In this document: piece after piece, positions 50,033 through 61,457 of the stretch
Numbering within the stretch: position 1 is the stretch's first letter
Layout: the number at the start of each line of letters is the position of its first letter
Origin: Vibrio sp. SCSIO 43137
GTDB taxonomy: Bacteria > Pseudomonadota > Gammaproteobacteria > Enterobacterales > Vibrionaceae
NCBI RefSeq assembly: GCF_028201475.1
Contig: NZ_CP116383.1
Location: 620,001 to 684,000 of the forward strand
Direction: 5' to 3'
DNA length: 64,000 nt
Translations under genes and position numbers: made by a program
Notes under the pieces: model-generated
Database searches by the model: none
What the model was told of the DNA's origin: nothing
The model's input: only the letters and a program-made list of their open reading frames with translations

Positions 50033-50929
50033 ATGAAAATAATGTCTTTTGTCAGCAAACTATGTCTTTTAGTCCCGTTTCTGGGAGTCACTATTTCCAC
50101 AGCCTACGCGGCACCAACGCCAGCCGAGTATGGTGTGGTACTTAACCTTTCCGGTAAACAACGCATGTTGTCGCAGAAAATGTCTAAGGAAGTGGCACTG
50201 GTTGCTTTAGGGGTTGAGGCAGAAAACAACCTTAAAAATCTGGCTGCCACTTCGTCTCTGTTTGATAAAACCCTGAAAGGATTGAGAGACGGAGATAACT
50301 CACTTGGTTTACCTGCTACAGAAAGCAAACGTATTTTGCGCCAGTTAACTAAAGTGGATGAGATTTGGGCGGGCTTTTATCCGGTAGTGAAACAGATCAT
50401 TGCATCGAAAACTGTGAATGAACAACAGCTTGATAGCATTGCCAAACAGAATCTGCCGTTGTTGAAGCAGATGAACAAAGCGGTAGGTTTATATGAAAAA
50501 GACGCGAAAAAAACCGGTCTGAAATCCGCACCGGGGCTGGCTGCCACCCTTAACTTGTCGGGTAAGCAGCGTATGTTGTCGCAGAAAATGAGCAAAGAGT
50601 ACTTTTTGATTGCCTTGGGCTATCAGGTCGAAGATAACAAACTGAACCTGCTGGAAACCTACTCCCTGTTCGATCGTACCCTGAAAGGCCTCAAAGATGG
50701 TGACGATACGTTGGATCTGCCCGGAACTAAACCGGAGCATATTCGCCAGCAATTAGATGTGGTTAACGGCTTATGGCAGGAGTTCCAGCCATTGGTGGCA
50801 GAAGGGGCTGCCCATAGTAGTGCCGGAATGAGTTCAGAGCAGGTAGGGCAGATTGCACGCCTTAACTTACCACTGCTGAAGGAGATGAATGCGGCGGTTC
50901 AGCTTTATGAGGCGGAAGCGGCGAAGTAA
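50033..50929 (+). CDS. Secreted protein with two tandem PilJ/NarX-like sensor repeats
   Basis: 298 aa, no membrane helix after the signal peptide. Residues 1-26 form a Sec signal ending AYA. Two homologous halves follow; each opens with the same LNLSGKQRMLSQKMSKE (residues 37-53 and 173-189) and continues with SLFD.TLKGL.DGD..L.LP and a closing LPLLK.MN.AV.LYE. This matches the helical-bundle domain found at the N terminus of PilJ and NarX sensors. Without a membrane anchor it should be a periplasmic ligand-binding protein. The next gene, 40 bp downstream, is a chemoreceptor, the probable partner (inferred). Confidence 0.82.
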   Translation: MKIMSFVSKLCLLVPFLGVTISTAYAAPTPAEYGVVLNLSGKQRMLSQKMSKEVALVALGVEAENNLKNLAATSSLFDKTLKGLRDGDNSLGLPATESKRILRQLTKVDEIWAGFYPVVKQIIASKTVNEQQLDSIAKQNLPLLKQMNKAVGLYEKDAKKTGLKSAPGLAATLNLSGKQRMLSQKMSKEYFLIALGYQVEDNKLNLLETYSLFDRTLKGLKDGDDTLDLPGTKPEHIRQQLDVVNGLWQEFQPLVAEGAAHSSAGMSSEQVGQIARLNLPLLKEMNAAVQLYEAEAAK

Positions 50930-50969
50930 TGCAAGTGATTGTTACAGCTAACCAGAGCAAGGAGGGCTT

Positions 50970-52646
50970 ATGCTGATAAGAACAAAACTGATAGCCATTG
51001 GTCTCTTTCTGTTTATCACCCTTATCGGTGTGGGAATTGCCGCTAAGCTTTCCTTCTCTACGTTAACTAAGGACTTTGAGCAGGTGGTTCTTGGTGCAAC
51101 AGACAGTGCCGAGAGTGCTCAGTTGGCCAGTGAAGGCGCTAACAGCGGCAGTCAACAACTGGCTGATATCAATACAGATATGCTACAGATAGTGGATGGT
51201 ATTAAAACCGCCAATCAGCGTAATAAACTTATCAGTAAAAAAGTGGAAGATATCAGTGCCACATTAGGTGAACTGATGGAAACCATTGATGAGTTATCGG
51301 AAGAGGTATATGACGAAGAAGCTCTGGCGATTCTTGAGGAAGTAAGCGACGAAGTCGGCGATATTGACGAGCGCCTTAAACGGGAGGCTTTGCTCAACAT
51401 TATGGCTTCTTCAGAAGCGCTGGATAAGTTTGCTGAGCGAATTGGTAGTGAAGCCAGTCAGGTTGATGCCCTGAACAGCTACCTGAAGCTTCAGGTGGAT
51501 ATTAGTGAGTCGAGCAGCGCCAGCAGTGAGTCGATACAGGCTCTGGCTCATCAGTCATCTCAGAATATCATCTGGCAGGAAAAGCTAATAGTTTACTCCC
51601 TGGTTGCCTTGGCATTTTCTGCCCTGATCATCACTTTTATTATTGTTAAAGTGATTGTTCTCCCTATCAATAAAACTGTTAAGCTGATGAAAAACATCGG
51701 TGAAGGGGAAGGGGACCTGACCCAGAGGCTGGAAGTATCCGGTAAGGATGAAATGGCATTAATCGCTATGGCGTTTAACCAGTTTGTCAGCAGGATACAG
51801 CATCTGATAGAGGATATTTCTGAGTCAACGGAGCAGCTTCGCCGTTTATCCGGTGAAACGCTGATGGCAATGCAGGAAGGCGATCAGGCAATGCGAAGTC
51901 AGCAGAGTGAAGTTGAACAAATCGCTACCGCGGTGAGTGAGATGAATGCCACCTCGCAGGATGTGGCTGAGAATGCCAATCTGGCAGAGGGAGCGTCACT
52001 TGAGGTGAATCAACATACTCAGTCTGGTCAGAAAGTGGTTGGTGAAGCGGTCAACTCGGTTACTCACCTGGTGGATGAAGTAGAAAATGCGGTGCAGGTT
52101 ATCGGCCAGCTTAGTGATAAATCGACATCGGTAAATTCTGTGGTGGACGTGATTCAGTCCGTTTCTGAGCAGACCAACCTGCTGGCACTTAATGCCGCCA
52201 TTGAAGCAGCAAGAGCCGGAGAGCACGGTCGTGGTTTTGCCGTAGTTGCAGATGAAGTACGAGCACTAGCAGCTAAGGTAGAGAGCAGCACATCTGATAT
52301 CCGGGATATCATAGATGAAATGCTCTCAATGACGGATAAAGCAGTAACCGTTATGGAGTCAAGCAGAGAGGTCAGCAATGAAACTCTTGAAGGCTCAAAT
52401 CAGGCGAGTGAAGCTCTCAGTGCTATCACCAATGCCATGCATACAGTGATTGATATGAATGCCCAGATCACCGGCTCCGCTAATGAGCAGAGAGGCGTGA
52501 CAGAACAATTGAACCAGAGAATCTCTCAGGTACATGAGCTCTCTAATCACACCTCAATTCAGCTATCGAGAACACTGGCGACCTGCCAGTCACTGGATGA
52601 AATCAGCCAGCACCTGTCAGGAAAGCTCCAGCAGTTTAAGGTGTGA
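50970..52646 (+). CDS. Methyl-accepting chemotaxis protein with helical periplasmic region
   Basis: 558 aa. Membrane helix 1 at about 7-29, a highly acidic helical/coiled-coil periplasmic region (30-205, with [28 protein letters not shown]), membrane helix 2 at about 206-232, HAMP ([27 protein letters not shown]), then the signalling hairpin with [43 protein letters not shown] precedes the ATG. No recognised ligand domain; its operon partner is the tandem PilJ-like secreted protein, which may present the ligand. Confidence 0.9.
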
Positions 52647-52678: not shown

Positions 52679-54130
52679 CTATTGGTCGCTAACTGCCATT
52701 TTTACAGCATTATAAGCACCGTCGTAGATACCGATGGACTGGGCATCAAGAATGCTTTTGCACATCTGTTCCACTATGCTCGGGTCATCGAGCATCAGAT
52801 GAAGCATCTGCACAACCTCTTCAACGGTCTCGAACTCAATAGTGCCGTCGCCCAGCTCTGAAGCCCTTAAAGCTCCATAGGCTTCATGACCACCGACGCG
52901 CTTAATCAACAGCTTGGGGACTGGATAGAATGCCAGTTCACTTGGTTTTGTCACCATAATGTCCGTTGCCCGCATTAACAGATTGGTAGTGTATACCGCA
53001 CTGTAAATATCCTGATTATGGAAGGCGTAAATACCGCTGATGTCACTGTCCCGTGCCATTTCGGCAAACTCTTCCGTTCCCTGCCAATTATTATCAAAGC
53101 AGTTTGAGACTTGTTCCAGCTCCGGTATCTCTTTACACAATGACTGCCAGATCTCTTTGTAGTCACCAACATTGATCAACAGGCAGACTTTGTTCTCTTT
53201 AACCAGAGGCATCATCTGGCAAATGATCTGTTTATAGATGCCAAACTGAGCTCCGGCACCACCAACGGTCAGAAGAACTCTGATGGATTCATGACCATTT
53301 GCCCTGCTGACACGTTTACGGCAGTCTTCGGCAAGATCTGCTAGTAACTCATGATCGATAAAATGGCCGGCGCAATGAATATCTGCGGCAGGCATTGGAG
53401 CGTTTTTCTTGTTATCACTCATTCCTTTTAGCATACGGTAGCCGAAATAACTTGATGGTGTCTGCACCAGATGTGTTGCTCCTTCGGCCAGATGCAGCGC
53501 CATAGGCCAGTTATCCGGAACAATATTGATAACATTTTTCAGTCCGGCATGAACCGCAGCCTGAGCCGGCCAGGTATGAGTGGCGATAAATGGCATCTCT
53601 TTTGGCAGGTTGCCATAAACAGGTGTCATTAGCTCAGCGACCTTTTGGTCCACGGCGTTATAACTGAGTTTACGGAAGCCTTCGCTGTTGAGTTTTTCCC
53701 AATAGAGCTTATTAAACAGAGGGATTTTCTGCGATAGGCGGGAACCGAGGGAGTAGAGCTTGTTCAGGTGAGCAATGACTTTACCGCCGGTAGTTTCCTG
53801 ATAAGCATTGAGATCAAACCAGTAAGGCTGGTAACCCAGATGATGAGCAACAGAGGCGATAGCCATTGAGATGCGGTAGTGGCCATATCCCATGCGGATA
53901 TTACCGACAAGAATCCCTTTTGGATTCCACTGATGTGAACTGTCGTTTTCTATAGTTATGTTCTCAATTCCAAGGTGAGAATGGAGCGTCGGGTTGGCTT
54001 TAGCGGAGAGCGGATAGTTTATCAGGCTGTCGTCGCCAAACTTTTTTCTGTATCTGGCCTTGGTTTTTACTGCTTTGTTTATTGTTGAACTCTTTTGCGG
54101 ATTACCAAAAACAGTACTGGAACGATCCAT
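52679..54130 (-). CDS. Glycosyltransferase-like protein (MurG/MGDG-synthase fold)
   Basis: 483 aa from ATG 54130, which has AAGG eight bases upstream; a GTG at 54136 in frame is too close to that site. The N-terminal half holds a glycine-rich GNIRMGYGHYRISMAIASVAHHLGY, like the GxGHxR loop of MurG and diacylglycerol glycosyltransferases. The C-terminal half has LLTVGGAGAQFG and TKPSELAFYPVPKLLIKRVGGHE, which resembles the nucleotide-sugar site of GT-B enzymes. No signal peptide. It is divergent from the galactoside operon and shares its control region. Substrate and product unknown; I do not recognise a named family. Confidence 0.65.
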   Translation of the reverse strand: MDRSSTVFGNPQKSSTINKAVKTKARYRKKFGDDSLINYPLSAKANPTLHSHLGIENITIENDSSHQWNPKGILVGNIRMGYGHYRISMAIASVAHHLGYQPYWFDLNAYQETTGGKVIAHLNKLYSLGSRLSQKIPLFNKLYWEKLNSEGFRKLSYNAVDQKVAELMTPVYGNLPKEMPFIATHTWPAQAAVHAGLKNVINIVPDNWPMALHLAEGATHLVQTPSSYFGYRMLKGMSDNKKNAPMPAADIHCAGHFIDHELLADLAEDCRKRVSRANGHESIRVLLTVGGAGAQFGIYKQIICQMMPLVKENKVCLLINVGDYKEIWQSLCKEIPELEQVSNCFDNNWQGTEEFAEMARDSDISGIYAFHNQDIYSAVYTTNLLMRATDIMVTKPSELAFYPVPKLLIKRVGGHEAYGALRASELGDGTIEFETVEEVVQMLHLMLDDPSIVEQMCKSILDAQSIGIYDGAYNAVKMAVSDQ

Positions 54131-54151
54131 AGTCACTACCTTGCGTATTAA

Positions 54152-54174
54152 TAATGTGAATTCGATTCACATTA
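54152..54174 (-). promoter_or_regulatory. TetR-type operator A (glycosyltransferase side)
   Basis: A perfect 23-bp palindrome TAATGTGAAT-N3-ATTCACATTA lies 22 bp upstream of the glycosyltransferase start. The half-sites are TGTGA and TCACA spaced by 7, one more than a CRP site. Confidence 0.78.
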
Positions 54175-54188
54175 TTGTGCGAGAGAGG

Positions 54189-54224
54189 TTGCAGGAAAGT
54201 CAAAAGGTGAATTATATTCACATT
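54189..54224 (+). promoter_or_regulatory. Hydrolase-operon promoter with overlapping operator B
   Basis: TTGCAG-N18-TATATT (54189-54218) is the best promoter. Operator B, GGTGAAT-tat-ATTCACA (54206-54222), covers the -10, so a bound repressor would exclude RNA polymerase. Centre to operator A is 51 bp. Confidence 0.7.
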
Positions 54225-54265
54225 TAAAAATGAGTGTGTATTCACAAAAGTTCGGACAGTGTGCT

Positions 54266-55228
54266 ATGAAGACAATAGAGAAGATCGCCGGTAGTTTTGG
54301 CAGAGAGATTGCCCTGCGACATTGGCGCATCAGGCATCAACAACCGCGTCTGGTGGTGGTACTGAGCCATGGAATGGGAGAGCATATCGACAGGTATGAT
54401 CCTTTTGCTCAGTTCTGCAACAGTAAAGATATTGTTGTACTGGGACTGAACCACAGAGGCCATGGGGAAGAGACTTCTCACCTTGGGCATTTTGATGATG
54501 AACAGGGCTGGATAAAGCTACTCGGTGATCTGGACAATGTGGTCGACTTTTCCCTTGAGCAATACGCCTGCCCGGTAGTGCTGCTTGGTCACAGCATGGG
54601 TTCTTTTGCTGCCCGCCATTACGCCATTCTGCACGGAAAAAAACTGTCCGGCCTGATTTTGTGTGGCTCTGATTACCGGCAACCTCCTCTGTTCAGGCTG
54701 GCGTCAGCAATTGCTTCCGCTCAAGTGACACTGTTCGGCAAGAGGCACCCTTCATGGCTGATGGAACTACTGAGCTTCGGCAGTTTTAATCTAAGGGTTT
54801 CTAAGCCGAGAACCCGGTATGACTGGTTAAACCGGGTTGATTCAGAGGTAGATAAATACATCCGGGATCCTTTCTGTGGAGGACGTAGCTCTGCTCAATT
54901 CTGGGTTGATTTTATGTCTGCACTGGCATGGTCAAGTAAACTATCTCATCTGAAACTTATTCCTCAGGAGCTGCCTGTCCTCGTTGCTTCCGGTGATGCC
55001 GACCCTGTTTCCCGAATGGGGAAAGGAGCAGAGGCGCTTACAAGTGCCCTTAGTCGCGCCGGGCTGAACAGTGTTGTTGTCAAACTCTACCCTGAAGCAA
55101 GGCATGAGCTGCTTTTAGAGCAAAACCGCACAGAGGTTTATCAGGATATTTATCGATGGCTTGAACTGTCGGGCATTGCAGAGGCTTCTGCTTCAGAAAC
55201 CTATGACAAGAAAAAGAGCAACGGATAA
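54266..55228 (+). CDS. Alpha/beta hydrolase, monoacylglycerol-lipase/lysophospholipase type
   Basis: 320 aa serine hydrolase. The nucleophile elbow is GHSMGS, preceded by LSHGMGEHIDRYDPFAQF and LNHRGHGE typical of Hydrolase_4 lipases; the acid is probably in ASGDADPVS and the His in EARHELLLE. No signal peptide, so it acts in the cytoplasm. The ATG at 54266 is preferred to the one at 54230, which would lie five bases from the predicted transcription start without a ribosome site. First gene of the symporter/galactosidase/TetR operon, suggesting it removes an acyl group from an imported galactoside (inferred). Confidence 0.82.
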   Translation: MKTIEKIAGSFGREIALRHWRIRHQQPRLVVVLSHGMGEHIDRYDPFAQFCNSKDIVVLGLNHRGHGEETSHLGHFDDEQGWIKLLGDLDNVVDFSLEQYACPVVLLGHSMGSFAARHYAILHGKKLSGLILCGSDYRQPPLFRLASAIASAQVTLFGKRHPSWLMELLSFGSFNLRVSKPRTRYDWLNRVDSEVDKYIRDPFCGGRSSAQFWVDFMSALAWSSKLSHLKLIPQELPVLVASGDADPVSRMGKGAEALTSALSRAGLNSVVVKLYPEARHELLLEQNRTEVYQDIYRWLELSGIAEASASETYDKKKSNG

Positions 55229-55239
55229 AGGACAATAAG

Positions 55240-56658
55240 ATGAACTCTAAATGGAAACTAATGCTCTTTTCGCTGGGAAATTTTGGCTGGTGTCTGGCTA
55301 CTTTCTCTTACACCATACTGATTACCTACTTTTACTATCCGCCTGCGACAGAAGCGGGTAGTGCTATTCCGGAATTTATCAGTCGTTCTCCGGTATTTAT
55401 GGGAGTCACGGTTGTCGGGTTAGTGTATGCCCTAAACAGGATACTTGATGCAGTAACGGATCCGATAATTGCCAGCCTCAGCGACCGCTCAACCAGCCGT
55501 TTTGGACGTAGGCGTTTCTTTATGATGCTGAGCTTTGTTCCGACCGGCCTGATGTCGGCTGCAATATTCTTTCCACCTTCAGATACAGCATCACCACTCA
55601 ATATTCTCTGGCTGGTGGTTTGCTGCGTTATCGTGACAGTAAATGTCACCATGTATGTCGTGCCCTATATGTCCCTGATCCCAGAGCTTGGCAGAAGTGA
55701 TCATCAGCGAGTGATGATTTCAACCTTCTGTTCAGTGTCGTGGGCACTGGCTTTTGCACTGGGACAGACTATCTGGGTAATCAAGGATACATTGCAGTCA
55801 ATGGGCTACACAGCTGTGGAGGCTATTCAGTTATCCGTTTCTCTCTTTTCCGTTCTTGGTATTGCTGCCATGCTGATACCGATTCTGATTATTGATGAGA
55901 AGAGAGATTGTCGCGGACATATAAACCAGAATGAGAATATGCTGGCGTCCCTTAAAGGGGCGATGAAATGCCGTAACTTCAGAAACTTTACTATTAGTAA
56001 CGGCTTGGCATTTATGGCCCGCTTCTTTCTGGAAGTCGGTGCAATCTACTATGTCACCATGTTAATGGGGCTAGAGGAGTCGACGGCCTCTCTGGTAATG
56101 ATACTACTCTTTGCCGCCAGTTTTGCCCTGTATCCCGTGGTGGTTCGGTTGTCCCGTAGTTATTCTAAAAAATCTCTATTCCGGCTGGCGTTATTAATTC
56201 AGGGCGTGTTGTTATCCGCCTTTACTTTATGTACCTCGGTTCCTGATCCCGAGCTTTTTGGCTGGTGTTTACTGGCGATTATGCCGTTTCCGTTAGCGAT
56301 TATGGGCATCATTCCTAACGTAATTGTGGCCGATCTGGCGCTGGCTGACGGAGCGCGGACGGGTCAATACCGTGAGGCGATGTTCTTTGGCGCTAATATG
56401 TTTGCCTATAAAGCGGCCACTTCATTTACTGCCCTGTTATTCCCTTCCATTATCATTATTGGTTCTTTTGCCGGTAGCGACTCACCGGAGCCCACCATAA
56501 CGGGGGTTACTATCTCTGCGGCGGTAGCCGGCTGTCTGGCTTTCTGTGGGGTATTTATTATGCGTAAGTATGATGAGCAGGAAGTGAAATCCATGATTCA
56601 GAGTGAAAGCTCTGAGCTGGGGGCGACTGATAAACAACTACTAACGGAGCCATTGTGA
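55240..56658 (+). CDS. GPH-family sugar:cation symporter (MelB-like)
   Basis: 472 aa with about 12 membrane helices. The GPH hallmark is ALNRILDAVTDPIIASLSDRSTSRFGRRRFFM in the first cytoplasmic loop, which carries the Asp residues of the cation site. The family imports galactosides, pentosides or glucuronides with Na+ or H+. It lies 11 bp after the hydrolase and 4 bp before the alpha-galactosidase, so an alpha-galactoside is the expected cargo. AAGGA precedes the ATG. Confidence 0.9.
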   Translation: MNSKWKLMLFSLGNFGWCLATFSYTILITYFYYPPATEAGSAIPEFISRSPVFMGVTVVGLVYALNRILDAVTDPIIASLSDRSTSRFGRRRFFMMLSFVPTGLMSAAIFFPPSDTASPLNILWLVVCCVIVTVNVTMYVVPYMSLIPELGRSDHQRVMISTFCSVSWALAFALGQTIWVIKDTLQSMGYTAVEAIQLSVSLFSVLGIAAMLIPILIIDEKRDCRGHINQNENMLASLKGAMKCRNFRNFTISNGLAFMARFFLEVGAIYYVTMLMGLEESTASLVMILLFAASFALYPVVVRLSRSYSKKSLFRLALLIQGVLLSAFTLCTSVPDPELFGWCLLAIMPFPLAIMGIIPNVIVADLALADGARTGQYREAMFFGANMFAYKAATSFTALLFPSIIIIGSFAGSDSPEPTITGVTISAAVAGCLAFCGVFIMRKYDEQEVKSMIQSESSELGATDKQLLTEPL

Positions 56659-56662
56659 AGGG

Positions 56663-59029
56663 ATGATTCATTACTGCGACAATAATAAGCTGTTTCATCT
56701 TCAGACTGAATCCACAAGCTACATTCTGAAGGTGTCGGATTTTGGTCATCTGCTAAATCTTTACTTCGGCGAAAGGCTGTCTCACCGTAGCAATCTGGAT
56801 GTTCTGGATCACCAGTATCAGGCTTTACTGGGTTCAACAACGGCATATTCTCAGCAGGATCCCCGTTATACATTAGAGACTCAGAAGCTTGAGGTAAGCA
56901 CTAACGGTAAAGGAGATTATCGTGATGCCAGTCTGCATCTGACTTTCAGTTCTGACGGCAGTACGGTGTCCGATTTTCTTTATCACTCCCATAAAATCCT
57001 TGATGAGAAACCGCAACCAGAGGGGCTACCCGCCACACATAGCACAGAAGATGGTGATATCAGCCTGATTATCCGCCTGAAGGAGGCGGTTCACGATATT
57101 TATCTGGATCTGCATTACACCTGTTTTTCTGATTCAAATGTTATTAGCCGTCGCATTGAAGTACACAATGAAAGTGATACAGACGTGACGCTGAACAAGG
57201 CGATGAGCTTTAATCTGGATCTGGATTTACAGCAGGCGCACGAGGTTGTGCACCTTACCGGAAAATGGATAGCAGAAGGTGATGTGCAGCGCGAGCCTGT
57301 CAGTAAAGGTTTACTGGTTCTGGATAGCAAGCGCGGAGTCAGTAGTAGTCAGCATGCCCCTTATCTGGCGCTTGTTTCACAACAATGCGATGAGTTTCAC
57401 GGAAGCTGTTACGGCTTTGGCCTGCTATACAGCGGCAATTTTAAAACCCAGCTAGAACGCTCCCCGTACGAGCAACTAAGAGTGAGTATGGGCATCTCCG
57501 ATTTTGATTTCAACTGGCCGCTTAAACCGGGGGAGTGCTTCTCGGCACCAGAGGCGGTAATGACTTACAGTGGCTCCGGACTGAACGCAATGAGCCGTAA
57601 TTTACATCATTGTGTAAACCATCATGTTGTTCAGCCGCGCTGGAAAGAGTGTCCAAGACCTGTTCAGGTAAACAACTGGGAGGCAACTTACTTTGATTTC
57701 GATAGCAGTAAGTTACAGACCCTTGCCCGTAAGGCGAAGAATCTGGGTGTTGAGCTATTTGTTCTGGATGATGGTTGGTTTGGCAAGCGGGATGATGACA
57801 GTAGCAGTCTGGGGGATTGGTTCGATCACGCAACTAAACTAACTGGTGGAGTAGAAAGGCTGGCAAATAAAATCCGTCAGCAAGGGCTGGAGTTTGGTAT
57901 CTGGGTTGAGCCGGAAATGATCTCTCCTGTTAGCCAGTTGTATAAACAGCACCCTGAATGGGCGATGACAGTTCCGGGACGGGTCGCCTCTCTTGGACGT
58001 AATCAGCTGGTTCTTGATCTCTCCAATCCGGAGGTTGTCGATTACCTGTATCAACAATTGAGTGACCTGTTCCGCCGCACTAAGGCCAGTTATGTTAAAT
58101 GGGATCACAACCGAAACCTGAGTGATGTCTATGCACCGGCTCGGGGCAGGGATCAGCAACACAGCCTCTATCACAGCTATGTTCTTGGTTTGTATCGCTT
58201 ATTGTTTCGTCTTCAGCAGAGTTTTCCGGATATTTTGTTTGAAAACTGCTCAAGTGGTGGTAACCGGTTTGATTTGGGTATGAGTTACTTTATGCCTCAG
58301 ACATGGATCAGTGATAACACTGATGCCCATGCACGGGTAGCGATTCAGAAGGGCTTTTCATATTTTATGCCGCCTTCCACCATGAGTGCTCATGTTTCCG
58401 GACGTCCTTCTCATCAGGCACTTCGTCAGATCCCTATCGAAACTCGTTTTAATGTGGCGGCTTTTGCCAATCTGGGTTATCAGTTGGATCTGACTAAACT
58501 GACCAAGTTTGAACAGCAGGTCATTGCACGGCAGGTGGCTTTCTATAAGAAGCACCGGAAGCTACTTCAGTTTGGCCGGTTTTACCGGCTTGAAACTCCG
58601 CAGGGAGAAGGTTGGTTAGTAATAAATGCTGAACAGACCGAAGCCTTAATGGGACTGTTTCAGGCACAACAGCCATGTAATGGTGAGCTTGAACGGGTTC
58701 GCCTGCCAATGCTTAATGCGGAGTGCGAGTACCTTATTCAGTCGAGGGAGCAGTTCCAGAATATCCGTCAGTTCGGCAGCCTGATTAATGAGCATATTCC
58801 TATCCGTATTAAAGACAGGGGCGTGTTGCACGGTGTGGTCGCGAATCATGTTTTACACCCCGTCACTCAGGAGGAGTACCGCTTATTCGGAGATCAACTG
58901 GCCAGTTTTGGTTTACCGCTGAAGAGCCAGTTTCTGGGTACAGAGTTAACTGAGAGTGTGAGGTTTATGGGAGATTACGGTTCACGAATGTATCTTTTGC
59001 AGCTTTGCCAAGATCAATCAAGGGAGTAG
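56663..59029 (+). CDS. GH36 alpha-galactosidase
   Basis: 788 aa, full length for the large GH36 type. An N-terminal beta-sandwich (1-330) precedes the barrel: NNWEATYFDFDSSKL, VLDDGWFGKRDDD, the nucleophile Asp481 in VKWDHNR, the substrate-binding ENCSSGGNRFD, and the acid/base Asp551 in WISDNTDAHAR. No signal peptide, so the sugar is cut after import. It starts 4 bp after the symporter stop with GAAGGG upstream, and the TetR gene follows. The oligosaccharide specificity is not readable. Confidence 0.95.
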   Translation: MIHYCDNNKLFHLQTESTSYILKVSDFGHLLNLYFGERLSHRSNLDVLDHQYQALLGSTTAYSQQDPRYTLETQKLEVSTNGKGDYRDASLHLTFSSDGSTVSDFLYHSHKILDEKPQPEGLPATHSTEDGDISLIIRLKEAVHDIYLDLHYTCFSDSNVISRRIEVHNESDTDVTLNKAMSFNLDLDLQQAHEVVHLTGKWIAEGDVQREPVSKGLLVLDSKRGVSSSQHAPYLALVSQQCDEFHGSCYGFGLLYSGNFKTQLERSPYEQLRVSMGISDFDFNWPLKPGECFSAPEAVMTYSGSGLNAMSRNLHHCVNHHVVQPRWKECPRPVQVNNWEATYFDFDSSKLQTLARKAKNLGVELFVLDDGWFGKRDDDSSSLGDWFDHATKLTGGVERLANKIRQQGLEFGIWVEPEMISPVSQLYKQHPEWAMTVPGRVASLGRNQLVLDLSNPEVVDYLYQQLSDLFRRTKASYVKWDHNRNLSDVYAPARGRDQQHSLYHSYVLGLYRLLFRLQQSFPDILFENCSSGGNRFDLGMSYFMPQTWISDNTDAHARVAIQKGFSYFMPPSTMSAHVSGRPSHQALRQIPIETRFNVAAFANLGYQLDLTKLTKFEQQVIARQVAFYKKHRKLLQFGRFYRLETPQGEGWLVINAEQTEALMGLFQAQQPCNGELERVRLPMLNAECEYLIQSREQFQNIRQFGSLINEHIPIRIKDRGVLHGVVANHVLHPVTQEEYRLFGDQLASFGLPLKSQFLGTELTESVRFMGDYGSRMYLLQLCQDQSRE

Positions 59030-59034
59030 AATAC

Positions 59035-59685
59035 GTGTTTTCAGACAGCCGGAAAAGAAGCATTACAAATATGGACTTATCTCAGGTAACAAATCGAAGA
59101 AACCCCAGCCAGGCGCGGAGCAAGGAGCGGGTATCGGCTATTCTGCAAGTGGTGAAAGAACTTATAGAGGAGAAAGGTATTAATAACCTGAAAGTGTCTG
59201 AAGTTGCCCACAGAGCAAATACTTCTCCTGGATCAATCTATCAGTACTTCAAAAATAAACAGTCCATTATTATTGCTTTAGCTGAACATTACATGGAACA
59301 AATTCATACCATTCTGGATGACAACCTTGCCCATCTTGAAAGTGTCGATTCTATGGCAGTGATGCTGGCGAGAAACTTTGATGATATTCATCAGTTGCAT
59401 GTCAGGGAGTCAGCTCTTCGTCAAATCTGGTTTGAGTCTATTGATCCCAAACTGAACAAGCTGGCAATGATTGATTGCCAGGTAAATACAGACAGAATTT
59501 ATAAGAAGCTAATTCAGGTAGCAGAACCGAAAGACAGAGAGAAACTGAAGAAGTTTATTCTGTTAATGAGCGTACAGTTTGGCTCCGTTATGCAGATCTG
59601 CTTTCAGGAAGGTGAGCAGAGTGTCGCTGACTACCGGGATATTTATATTCAGAATATCAGCCGTTCAATTCAGGATTACTTTTAA
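59035..59685 (+). CDS. TetR-family repressor of the galactoside cluster
   Basis: 216 aa from a GTG at 59035, which has AGGGAG at the right distance; an ATG at 59071 is the alternative. The N-terminal helix-turn-helix (ARSKERVSAILQVVKELIEEKGINNLKVSEVAHRANTSPGSIYQYFKNKQSIIIALAEHY) is classic TetR; the ligand domain is unassigned. It is the last gene of the hydrolase-symporter-galactosidase operon, and the same palindrome occurs at both control regions, so it most likely represses the whole cluster and its own operon. Inducer unknown. Confidence 0.88.
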   Translation: MFSDSRKRSITNMDLSQVTNRRNPSQARSKERVSAILQVVKELIEEKGINNLKVSEVAHRANTSPGSIYQYFKNKQSIIIALAEHYMEQIHTILDDNLAHLESVDSMAVMLARNFDDIHQLHVRESALRQIWFESIDPKLNKLAMIDCQVNTDRIYKKLIQVAEPKDREKLKKFILLMSVQFGSVMQICFQEGEQSVADYRDIYIQNISRSIQDYF

Positions 59686-59723
59686 GTGTAGTTCTAGCCT
59701 ACTTCATTGATTATCTTACCTTT

Positions 59724-59747
59724 AAGGCCTGTGAAAACAGGCCTTTT
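59724..59747 (+). terminator. Terminator after tetR
   Basis: AAGGCCTGT-gaaa-ACAGGCCTT with a T run, 38 bp after the stop. Confidence 0.88.
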
Positions 59748-59800
59748 TCATTGCTGAATAACTTTCTTCTTTAACAGAAATCTGTAGCTAGCTCACATAA

Positions 59801-59899
59801 TGTGAAACTGATTCATGTATTTGATAGGGTTGCTTTCTTAATGTGAACCTCATTCACTTTTTGTACATGACGATAAGTAATAATATAAATGTGATTCAT
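59801..59899 (+). promoter_or_regulatory. Porin promoter with operators C and D
   Basis: Operator C, GTGAAA-ctg-ATTCAT (59802-59816), and operator D, GTGAAC-ctc-ATTCAC (59843-59857), keep the same 7-base spacing between TGTGA and TCA. The promoter TTGTAC-N17-TATAAA (59861-59889) starts four bases after D, and a further GTGATTCAT sits just past the -10 at 59891-59899. C and D centres are 41 bp apart. Confidence 0.7.
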
Positions 59900-59954
59900 G
59901 TTTACTAAAAAGGAATGCAACGTTTCGTTGTGATGAAAATAACAATCAGGACCT

Positions 59955-61457
59955 ATGACCATGATTAGAAAAACGCCTCTTGCTCTCGCAACTACATTAT
60001 TAATACATCAGAGTGCTTTTGCTTCTGTCGAACAGTTTTTTCAGGATTCTTCGGTAGATTTGAAGTGGAAAGTAAACTACTACGATATCTCCGGTGAAAG
60101 TACGGCAAATATTCCGATTAAGAAACAAGAGTTATTGGCTCTGAACTCTAATCTGGCACCTATTTCGGGATTGCTACCAGACTCTGTTGATGCTCAGGTA
60201 AAAAGAGATATGAGTATTAAAGATTCGGGAACCTCCGTCTGGGTAAACTGGCATTCGGGCTGGTTACTTGATCATTTCGCCATAGAGCTGGAGACACAGG
60301 GAGCTGGTATCTTTGATCAGACTGGTGAGAATATTGTAACGGCAACGGCCACTTTACCTGTGGTTGGTCAGCAGACGATTCCGCAACGAGCTGACAACCC
60401 TTACTACTATATGCGTGATGCCGATGAAAATTTTATCGGAAAAATCGGCAATGCGAACCTACGACTGAAAGTGGGGGAAGAAGATGCTCATGTTCAGTTG
60501 GTCGCGGGTCGCTTTACCCCGACTATTTATGATCTGCTGCACCGTCCCGATGAGATTTATTACGGTATGCATCAGGTATATCAGGGGGCTTCTGTTCAGG
60601 GGCACTACAAATGGTCATGGGGTTCGGTTAACCCATGGTTTAACTACTTCACCGGTTTCAGCAGTGAGTACAACGAGGGAACCGTTGATTTTAAGGATGA
60701 CCTGAAAGACAACTTCAAAGGTGATTATCTGGACGGTAGTTACGATGAGATTTATAACATTGGTTTTCATACGGTTACCGACTATTTCACCAGTAGCGCA
60801 TCACTCTCTTACGCTGAAGATTATCTGAGTAACGGTATTATCGAAATTTACTCAGGTATTCCTTATTCACTATTAGGCTGGGGAGAAGCCTCAGAAGATG
60901 CGAAACACCGTATTAAGTACATGGTGAAGTATGGATTTGAAAAGGGTAAAGGGGTTAACAGTGACCATAAAACCGATGTCTGGGAAGCAGCTATCGGTGT
61001 TGAACATGGTAACTTCGACATTCTGACCGGGATAACCCAGATTGGTGATGAAAGCTTTGCCGGCTTTGATACACAAGATAATTCCAGTGCTGGCGGCGGC
61101 ACAGCTGTATGGGGGGATGTTGCCATACTTAACCCGTTTGACCGGGCCGGTCAACGCACCTATTTTGCTGTCGGAGGCTATAACCTTGATGGCTTTAATC
61201 TGCCGGGTTGGAGGGTTCAGGGTGTTATTGCCAGTGCCCACGATACAGACTTAGCTGAACTGTCCCTGAAAGATCGTCTGAAAACGCCGAAAGAGGATTA
61301 CACCGAAGTCAACCTGGACATTATCTACGGCAAAAACGGTTATCAGGGAGAAGGTATGAGTTATCTGCTGAAAATTGGTAAGGACAATAACTTTGACGCC
61401 TTTGGCTTTGGCTTCTTCGTTGAGTACAACGGTGATCTGACTAAGCTGATAGATTAA
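59955..61457 (+). CDS. Outer-membrane porin-like protein, substrate-specific (OprD-like)
   Basis: 500 aa. A Sec signal (MTMIRKTPLALATTLLIHQSAFA) is followed by alternating amphipathic beta strands, YYYMRDADENFIGKIGNANLRLKVG, VAGRFTPTIYDLLHRPDEI and DAFGFGFFVEYNG, as in OprD-type channels. The last residues are TKLID rather than the usual terminal aromatic residue of outer-membrane barrels. AGGA lies upstream of the ATG. Shared operators with the galactoside operon suggest it lets the same substrate through the outer membrane. The family call is tentative. Confidence 0.68.
   Translation: MTMIRKTPLALATTLLIHQSAFASVEQFFQDSSVDLKWKVNYYDISGESTANIPIKKQELLALNSNLAPISGLLPDSVDAQVKRDMSIKDSGTSVWVNWHSGWLLDHFAIELETQGAGIFDQTGENIVTATATLPVVGQQTIPQRADNPYYYMRDADENFIGKIGNANLRLKVGEEDAHVQLVAGRFTPTIYDLLHRPDEIYYGMHQVYQGASVQGHYKWSWGSVNPWFNYFTGFSSEYNEGTVDFKDDLKDNFKGDYLDGSYDEIYNIGFHTVTDYFTSSASLSYAEDYLSNGIIEIYSGIPYSLLGWGEASEDAKHRIKYMVKYGFEKGKGVNSDHKTDVWEAAIGVEHGNFDILTGITQIGDESFAGFDTQDNSSAGGGTAVWGDVAILNPFDRAGQRTYFAVGGYNLDGFNLPGWRVQGVIASAHDTDLAELSLKDRLKTPKEDYTEVNLDIIYGKNGYQGEGMSYLLKIGKDNNFDAFGFGFFVEYNGDLTKLID

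Follow-up and report, generated by a model that had tools for sequence, protein, structure and literature searches.

What do the six genes at positions 52679..61457 of the 64-kb stretch of Vibrio sp. SCSIO 43137 DNA analysed here (the window) do together, and does one repressor govern them all? The leftmost gene (52679..54130, minus strand) encodes a glycosyltransferase-like protein with DUF6937 and DUF6938 domains and is divergent from an operon on the plus strand; we moved its start from 54136 to 54130, the position of a Met that is almost invariant among homologues. The operon encodes a monoacylglycerol-lipase-like alpha/beta hydrolase of the Hydrolase_4 type (54266..55228, its frame open from 54230), a GPH-type sugar:cation symporter (55240..56658), a GH36 alpha-galactosidase (56663..59029) and, last in the unit, a TetR-family repressor (59035..59685). 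Downstream of tetR lies a terminator-like hairpin (59724..59745, plus strand), and the region 59680-59960 holds 2 terminator-like sites against 0.1 expected. Next on the plus strand comes an outer-membrane porin that is probably distantly related to OprD (59961..61457, its frame open from 59955). The starts of the hydrolase (about 54266) and the porin (59961) were set by comparing them with relatives. Taken as a whole, the locus is probably best explained as a TetR regulon for the import and breakdown of an alpha-galactoside.

The enzyme and transporter assignments point to such a pathway. The GH36 protein matches PF02065 at 1.1e-138, with PF16875 and PF16874 also over cut-off; phmmer matches it to AgaB at 1.4e-183, and it carries the motifs KWDHNR at 479 and SDNTDA at 550, whose aspartates we take to be the catalytic residues. 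The symporter matches PF13347 at 3.7e-41 (141.5 bits; cut-off 27) and TIGR00792 at 1.3e-25, the latter with a score of 89.9 that is under its cut-off of 231. For the hydrolase, PF12146 is matched at 1.1e-43, PDB relatives include monoglyceride lipases, and the motifs GHSMG, SGDADPV and ARHE are present. At least 33 homologues of the porin were found, one of which (P0137, 48% identical) matches the OprD family PF03573 at 4.1e-8; the OprD Pfam profile has no match in the window porin itself nor in 8 of the 9 homologues scanned, a profile of the porin gave a sole PDB match with an E-value of 0.11, and its AlphaFold model has a pLDDT of 30. The GH36 and GPH assignments thus uphold the alpha-galactoside pathway proposed in a first-pass annotation, and the role of the module is most probably alpha-galactoside catabolism, with the substrate itself suggested by these assignments. 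The molecule would enter via the porin and then the cation symporter, and GH36 would cut galactose off in the cytoplasm; the hydrolase and the DUF6937/DUF6938 protein would deal with the remainder, while the imported molecule or a breakdown product would free the repressor from DNA.

There is about an even chance that the substrate is an ordinary soluble alpha-galactoside (melibiose, raffinose, galactinol or floridoside) with no lipid link, in which case the hydrolase would deacetylate or deacylate a sugar. The GH36 and GPH proteins are compatible with any alpha-galactoside, as is the presence of galK or galT within the fetched stretch of 4 of 17 DUF6937 neighbourhoods surveyed outside the genus (L011, L039, L048 and L049). 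However, a soluble sugar leaves unexplained both the conserved MGD1-like protein and the lipase-like enzyme beside it, which adjoins the glycosyltransferase-like gene in 3/3 genus genomes that bear the latter. If the substrate is a special one, its likeliest class is galactosyl-glycerol or galactolipid-derived molecules, a tentative proposal that we regard as rather doubtful; examples would be galactolipids of algae or plants in the form of their headgroups or lyso-forms. The 17 neighbourhoods, which come from Clostridia, a spirochaete and a Silvanigrella bin, have a GH36-type gene nearby in 15, GPH in 12 and TetR in 8, all as raw counts with no random-clostridial-gene baseline for GH36 and with some close kin among them (L046 and L047 share 94% identity over adjacent open frames of 224 aa). 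The clostridial DUF6937 genes showed no relative of the window hydrolase nearby, and this counts against the lipid reading.

DUF6937/DUF6938 is a strongly conserved, uncharacterised domain pair, with 67% mean column identity across 49 sequences, most of them drawn from the top 120 among 5340 homologues. It has a predicted GT-B fold, for which VIA-align places MGD1 first and MurG among the top matches and Foldseek ranks MGD1 only ninth, and an N-terminal GxGH motif like that of MGD1 and MurG. Alignment to MGDG-synthase-family proteins by hhalign gives a probability of 92.7% over 327 columns, an NCBIfam match to diglucosyl diacylglycerol synthase (2e-4) is far under cut-off, and PDB sequence searches returned no match. 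Identity to plant MGD1 is 16%, and the match leaves out roughly 70 residues at the N-terminus. We consider it plausible, if on balance doubtful, that the protein is an ordinary UDP-sugar glycosyltransferase using the freed galactose for a glycolipid or surface glycan, which would make the module partly biosynthetic. The fold, its top VIA-align matches, the hhalign result and the weak diglucosyl diacylglycerol synthase match all favour this, but the gene accompanies uptake and hydrolysis genes, and the donor loop is altered. Among 13 MGDG-family proteins, 12 carry a TKPGGxTxSE loop, the thirteenth being probably a wrongly chosen frame; across the best 120 of 5340 homologues, TKPG(G/A/S) occurs in 0/120 and is replaced by TKPSELxxYPxPKL in 119/120, and the loop is five residues shorter than in those 12 proteins of the GT28/MGDG-synthase family in 120/120. 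It is also conceivable, though improbable, that this relative of galactolipid synthases has turned degradative, having lost its donor loop, and cleaves beta-galactosyl-glycerol after the GH36 step. The reaction might be, for example, a phosphorolysis to galactose-1-phosphate and glycerol.

The common control of the six genes is suggested by a set of palindromes. The first-pass annotation had described four, with TGTGA-N7-TCACA exact twice in the divergent gap. All four are present where it placed them, the 17-mer being exact at only one of the two in the gap, and a fifth site, operator E, had been overlooked. With the 23-bp pattern AAAYRTGAATnnnATTCAYRTTT, the predicted operators in the divergent gap are A, TAATGTGAATTCGATTCACATTA (54152..54174; core TGTGAATTCGATTCACA at 54155, exact), and B, AAAGGTGAATTATATTCACATTT (54203..54225; core GGTGAATTATATTCACA at 54206, one change). 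Preceding the porin gene, at spacings of 41 and 42 bp, are C, TAATGTGAAACTGATTCATGTAT (59798..59820; core TGTGAAACTGATTCATG at 59801, two changes), D, TAATGTGAACCTCATTCACTTTT (59839..59861; core TGTGAACCTCATTCACT at 59842, one change), and the newly found E, TAATATAAATGTGATTCATGTTT (59881..59903), which has the top matrix score of 26.4. A promoter scan places a minus-strand TATAAT at 54211-54216 within operator B, confirming that this site covers a predicted -10, and by eye a plus-strand TATATT occupies the same place. The claim that operator D abuts a -35 holds by eye, with TTGTAC at 59861-59866 and its partner TATAAA (59884-59889) falling within operator E, but this plus-strand porin promoter is under the threshold of the scan and absent from its output. 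Spacings between neighbouring operators are 41, 42, 46, 46, 51, 56, 57 and 58 bp; since they vary from 41 to 58 bp, we rejected a fixed helical phase or conserved cooperative geometry. The short TGTGA-N7-TCACA motif shows no enrichment in the window when up to 2 mismatches are allowed (28 seen against 31.6 expected); the signal resides in the longer 23-bp site.

Relatives within the genus carry the same association. The symporter is found in 4/227 genus genomes, each of which has same-type sites ahead of the corresponding genes, and the glycosyltransferase-like gene in 3/223, every one a symporter holder; early samples (1/247, 1/394 and 1/369) had given the latter gene in this genome alone, not in G609 or G679. 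The module of the three relatives (G609, G669 and G679) is arranged differently from that of the window, yet at least two copies of the 23-bp site occur in 7/7 module promoter regions of the four genomes. The porin-symporter gaps of the three relatives have no site, as expected within an operon. In G679, a genome-wide match 974 kb from tetR turned out to mark the gap between the divergently oriented glycosyltransferase-like and hydrolase genes. G669 has neither GH36 nor the glycosyltransferase-like gene near its symporter, and the latter gene nowhere in its genome; only tetR, porin and symporter are left, between ruvC- and ruvA-like frames, with their sites kept. The hydrolase frame of G609 is interrupted near the C-terminus and the remainder matches in another frame, so the gene may be broken or the assembly in error. 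The window porin is 59-62% identical to the tetR-adjoining porins of the three relatives.

A leave-one-genome-out matrix, built solely from the relatives' sites and then run on the window, puts the five sites first in 64 kb with scores of 19.8-26.4, the next best being 10.4; in 30 sequences of the same 64-kb length generated by a first-order Markov model, the best scores had a mean of 10.2 and a maximum of 17.4. Across the whole genome, the 23-bp pattern at up to 3 mismatches has 10 matches, five of which are operators A-E; the remaining five all have 3 mismatches, and a reversed-pattern control also gave 5. At this threshold this genome (G000) totals 10 matches (control 5), G609 9 (control 5), G669 3 (control 5) and G679 10 (control 4), and most of the remaining matches are chance. 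At up to 1 mismatch, matches lie in the module in 4/4 cases in G609, 2/2 in G669 and 2/2 in G679 (the tetR-porin region and the unlinked gap); this genome has a single match, also within the module, and 3/3 at up to 2 mismatches. The closest matches thus fall only at module genes, which bears out the genome-wide search proposed earlier, although these strict counts are not independent because the pattern was picked from the sites of these genomes. Two parts of the site evidence are independent: the leave-one-genome-out matrix and the unlinked locus of G679.

Some other matches were also inspected. The short pattern at up to 2 mismatches occurs 204 times in the genome, as does its reversed control. 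A third exact copy, GTGAATNNNATTCAC at C1:1931319, was taken as chance because it is missing from the 23-bp matches; we interpret the frames flanking it as trpA and a symporter of dicarboxylate type. Among the single-mismatch short-motif matches, the four loci inspected (L004, L005, L007 and L008) showed no module gene. One of these four, C1:294518 past an ssb frame, is accompanied by a 2-mismatch site 41 bp further along (294559), neither of them among the 23-bp matches, and an additional target may lie beside it. In G679, near-sites at C1:596411 (2 mismatches) and 597039 (3) were rejected as lying inside two tandem membrane-protein-like genes. The other four non-module matches of that genome each have 3 mismatches, one of them (C2:1663067, stretch L058) between two unrelated frames.

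The neighbouring repressor is predicted to bind these sites. Its N-terminal HTH domain matches PF00440 at 3.1e-12 (46.5 bits; cut-off 24), and short palindromes at the promoters of the regulator and its targets are conserved with orthologues in all 7 regions. That the palindromes are conserved and travel with this gene set is observed directly; that the window TetR binds them we infer from sequence. Regulators may control distant genes, and the sites could on that account serve a different one, with the adjacent TetR governing something else or part of the set. We judge this very unlikely: tetR lies beside or within the site-bearing genes in 4/4 genomes, G669 keeps its sites though reduced to three genes, and the stretch SPxSxYQYF, presumably the recognition helix, is common to the HTH regions of all four TetRs. 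The TetRs of the three relatives are 40-44% identical to that of the window. Catabolite control by CRP, named earlier as an alternative, is more improbable still: the TGTGA/TCACA halves do resemble the CRP half-site consensus, and N6 matches occur at 59929 (TGTGATGAAAATAACA, 1 mismatch) and 54231 (2 mismatches), but the operators are spaced by N7 and CRP sites by N6, ATG or ATA stands at the relevant position in 12 of 20 half-sites from the relatives and GTG in only 5, the window shows no excess of N6 sites (24 seen against 32.2 expected), and near matches to the long palindrome are restricted to module genes. The cross-genome sites, including the unlinked G679 pair, therefore support the earlier proposal of one regulon over six genes, and it is very likely that the module is a single TetR regulon. 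TetR would repress three transcription units, the leftward glycosyltransferase-like gene, the rightward hydrolase-symporter-GH36-tetR operon and the porin gene, via paired or tripled 23-bp palindromes overlapping promoters, and, being encoded inside that operon, would repress itself.

The module resembles known systems in part. Melibiose and raffinose operons likewise join a cation-coupled sugar transporter (MelB or RafB) to an alpha-galactosidase (GH36 or GH4), with AraC- or LacI-type regulators, and to our knowledge lack a DUF6937 protein or lipase-like hydrolase. Sulfoquinovose is used by E. coli through the yih cassette, whose sulfoquinovosidase is GH31-type. This cassette (ompL-yihOPQRSTUVW) shares with the window module a porin, sugar transport (there by MFS transporters), a glycosidase (there acting on the headgroup sugar of a plant lipid) and a local repressor (its block lifted by the substrate in E. 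coli); that repressor is CsqR rather than TetR, the glycosidase of the window module is GH36, and neither a DUF6937 protein nor an acyl hydrolase is among the yih genes listed there (PMC12608037). Plasmid pTS2 of Treponema saccharophilum (NZ_AP025290.1) has GH36, DUF6937 protein, TetR and GPH genes in a row, as here, with the DUF6937 protein 50.5% identical to that of the window; it differs in its short GH36 type, in having no hydrolase or porin annotated alongside, in a TetR of 26% identity and in being plasmid-borne. Exact-word searches of one open-access library found no paper naming DUF6937 or DUF6938, and none combining floridoside, or digalactosyldiacylglycerol, with Vibrio and alpha-galactosidase. 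Further searches there on galactolipid, GPH and alpha-galactosidase (among the matches listed, including PMC9626764), on galactosylglycerol gene clusters and rumen galactolipid, and on TetR, alpha-galactosidase, regulon and porin gave no such system in the accessible portions of the texts.

With five sites and an unlinked case to try it on, what was a guess from a single sequence has become a regulon open to testing, and the uncharacterised DUF6937 and DUF6938 domains gain a functional setting. Galactolipids are very abundant membrane lipids, and the galactosyl-glycerol reading, if true, would show how marine and rumen bacteria exploit their sugar heads. If the DUF6937/DUF6938 protein were indeed degradative, a lipid-making glycosyltransferase fold would have been redeployed for breakdown, and TetR-controlled catabolism of galactolipid headgroups in Vibrio, Endozoicomonas, rumen Clostridia and spirochaetes would form a galactose counterpart to sulfoquinovose catabolism.

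The module spans window coordinates 52679-61457 in the 4.94-Mb, two-contig genome of Vibrio sp. SCSIO 43137. Its first gene, pointing leftward, encodes the DUF6937+DUF6938 glycosyltransferase-like protein (GT), and a rightward run follows of monoacylglycerol-lipase-like hydrolase, GPH symporter, GH36 alpha-galactosidase and TetR regulator, with intergenic distances of 11, 4 and 5 bp. The porin gene comes last, past a terminator-like hairpin (59724-59745) that separates it from tetR. This layout indicates that the six genes probably form three transcription units rather than a single operon. Genes for a PilJ-domain protein and a chemotaxis receptor occupy 50033-52646, ending immediately beside the GT gene.

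All four palindromes proposed by the first-pass annotation were found, two in the divergent gap (54152-54174 and 54203-54225; centres 51 bp apart) and two before the porin gene (59798-59820 and 59839-59861), and we identified a fifth at 59881-59903, with centre-to-centre distances of 41 and 42 bp among the three upstream of the porin. As for TGTGA-N7-TCACA, the short motif in which they were first described, it occurs in the window no more often than expected by chance and, in its loose form, genome-wide as often as the control. The 23-bp form AAAYRTGAATnnnATTCAYRTTT discriminates better: allowing up to 3 mismatches, the window genome holds 10 matches, 5 in the module and 5 elsewhere, with a count of 5 for the reversed control pattern. 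The 15-bp core also recurs as a weak pair, spaced by 41 bp, 3' of an ssb frame on the first contig (C1:294518-294573; about 1501-1556 of stretch L004); neither copy is in the 23-bp match list.

GT was found in 3/223 genomes of the genus and a close symporter homologue in 4/227, and we read the module loci of three relatives, G609, G669 and G679. All six genes are present in G609, reordered so that hydrolase and GT are divergent, followed by tetR divergent from porin-symporter-GH36. The G609 hydrolase frame (L019 3500-4389) stops early near the C-terminus, with a matching C-terminal stretch in another frame, so this is either a broken gene or an assembly error. In G679 tetR is likewise divergent from porin-symporter-GH36. 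About 430 bp past GH36 lie frames (L018 13178-17398) that read as anaerobic glycerol-3-phosphate dehydrogenase subunits, the first with FAD oxidoreductase and BFD domains; these neighbours would fit a glycerol-containing substrate, but may be there by chance. G669 carries tetR, porin and symporter only (L020 8235-12303), flanked by ruvC- and ruvA-like frames, which suggests that a reduced module was inserted into a housekeeping operon. Every divergent gap of the three relatives contains two palindrome copies, and their porin-symporter gaps contain none.

At up to 3 mismatches, the match totals were 9 in G609, 3 in G669 and 10 in G679, against control counts of 5, 5 and 4. Of these matches, 4 in G609 and 2 in G669 fall in the module, and 4 in G679 fall at its two module places. 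One of these places, C2:1669530-1669598, holds a perfect 23-bp match with a 3-mismatch partner 46 bp off, the same spacing as in the G609 GT-hydrolase gap, and lies ~974 kb from the tetR locus of G679. The pattern was matched before any GT or hydrolase gene had been seen there, a test that could have failed; reading the locus revealed GT (56% identical) and hydrolase (50%) genes pointing away from the site-bearing gap. The site therefore tracks the gene pair and not the neighbourhood. With a matrix built from the ten sites of the three relatives, leaving out those of the window, the five window sites ranked top (scores 19.8 to 26.4; next 10.4), and the best score among 30 random 64-kb sequences was 17.4.

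CRP is an unlikely owner of the sites, the TGTGA- and TCACA-like halves being separated by seven bases, and no enrichment of CRP-type N6 sites was found in the window. Over 30 half-sites (15 sites, both strands), A3, T6, A8 and A9 are invariant and G7 occurs in 27. GTG at half-site positions 5-7, counted by eye, is commoner in the window (7/10) than in the relatives (5/20), and the TGTGA look is therefore mostly local flavour.

The porin has at least 33 homologues among 7,997 candidates. In one Moritella MAG a porin homologue carries number 254 and a DUF6937 protein number 256, with equal contig sizes, and a second porin/DUF6937 pair falls on contigs of identical size (250645); from these matching sizes, porin and GT appear linked in Moritella too. 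The OprD profile matches one of nine scanned homologues and does not match the window porin.

DUF6937+DUF6938, named in no paper of the searched literature, shows 67% mean column identity across 49 chosen sequences. Beyond the genus, 17 of its neighbourhoods were read. A genome-collection scan supplied four, and twelve came from genomes belonging to the same order as an Oscillospiraceae genome (gene in 13/295 genomes of that order, the thirteenth already among the first four); the last is on a Treponema saccharophilum plasmid. GH36-type genes lie near 15 of the 17; those of L011, L037 and L039 are of the long form, and the other 12 are of a short melibiase-like form of less certain specificity, the L012 copy also matching GH31. 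The two exceptions are L038 and L010, the latter on a contig that begins 188 bp ahead of GT. A GPH symporter accompanies GT in 12/17 and a TetR gene in 8/17 (a TetR gene being counted when its product resembled that of L045, in which the Pfam domain is present), and galK or galT is within the fetched stretch in 4/17. A GH2 enzyme adjoins GT in two clusters (L037 9808-12213 and L038 9981-12323; ~62% mutual identity), and GH2 plus GH36 could jointly dismantle a digalactosyl headgroup.

TGATAG...CTATCA palindromes occur in the gaps between clostridial GT and divergent TetR genes of L040 (9890-10010), L042 (9040-9195), L044 (2628-2780) and L045 (9864-10012). By eye there are two copies per gap, the second of L045 degenerate; a palindrome finder returned a single copy in each gap except that of L044, where it listed none. 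TTGACA-like boxes lie near these palindromes. None was seen in the differently arranged gaps of L043, L046 and L047. Because such palindromes sit beside clostridial GT/TetR pairs, TetR control of the DUF6937/6938 gene may be general, with a different operator sequence.

The regulon predicted by the first-pass annotation, with TetR controlling all six genes, is well supported by the sites across relatives, including the unlinked G679 locus. It is a variant of a familiar type in which genes for sugar uptake come under a putative local repressor. New here are the fifth candidate operator, the demonstration by way of an unlinked locus, and a widespread modular setting for DUF6937/6938.
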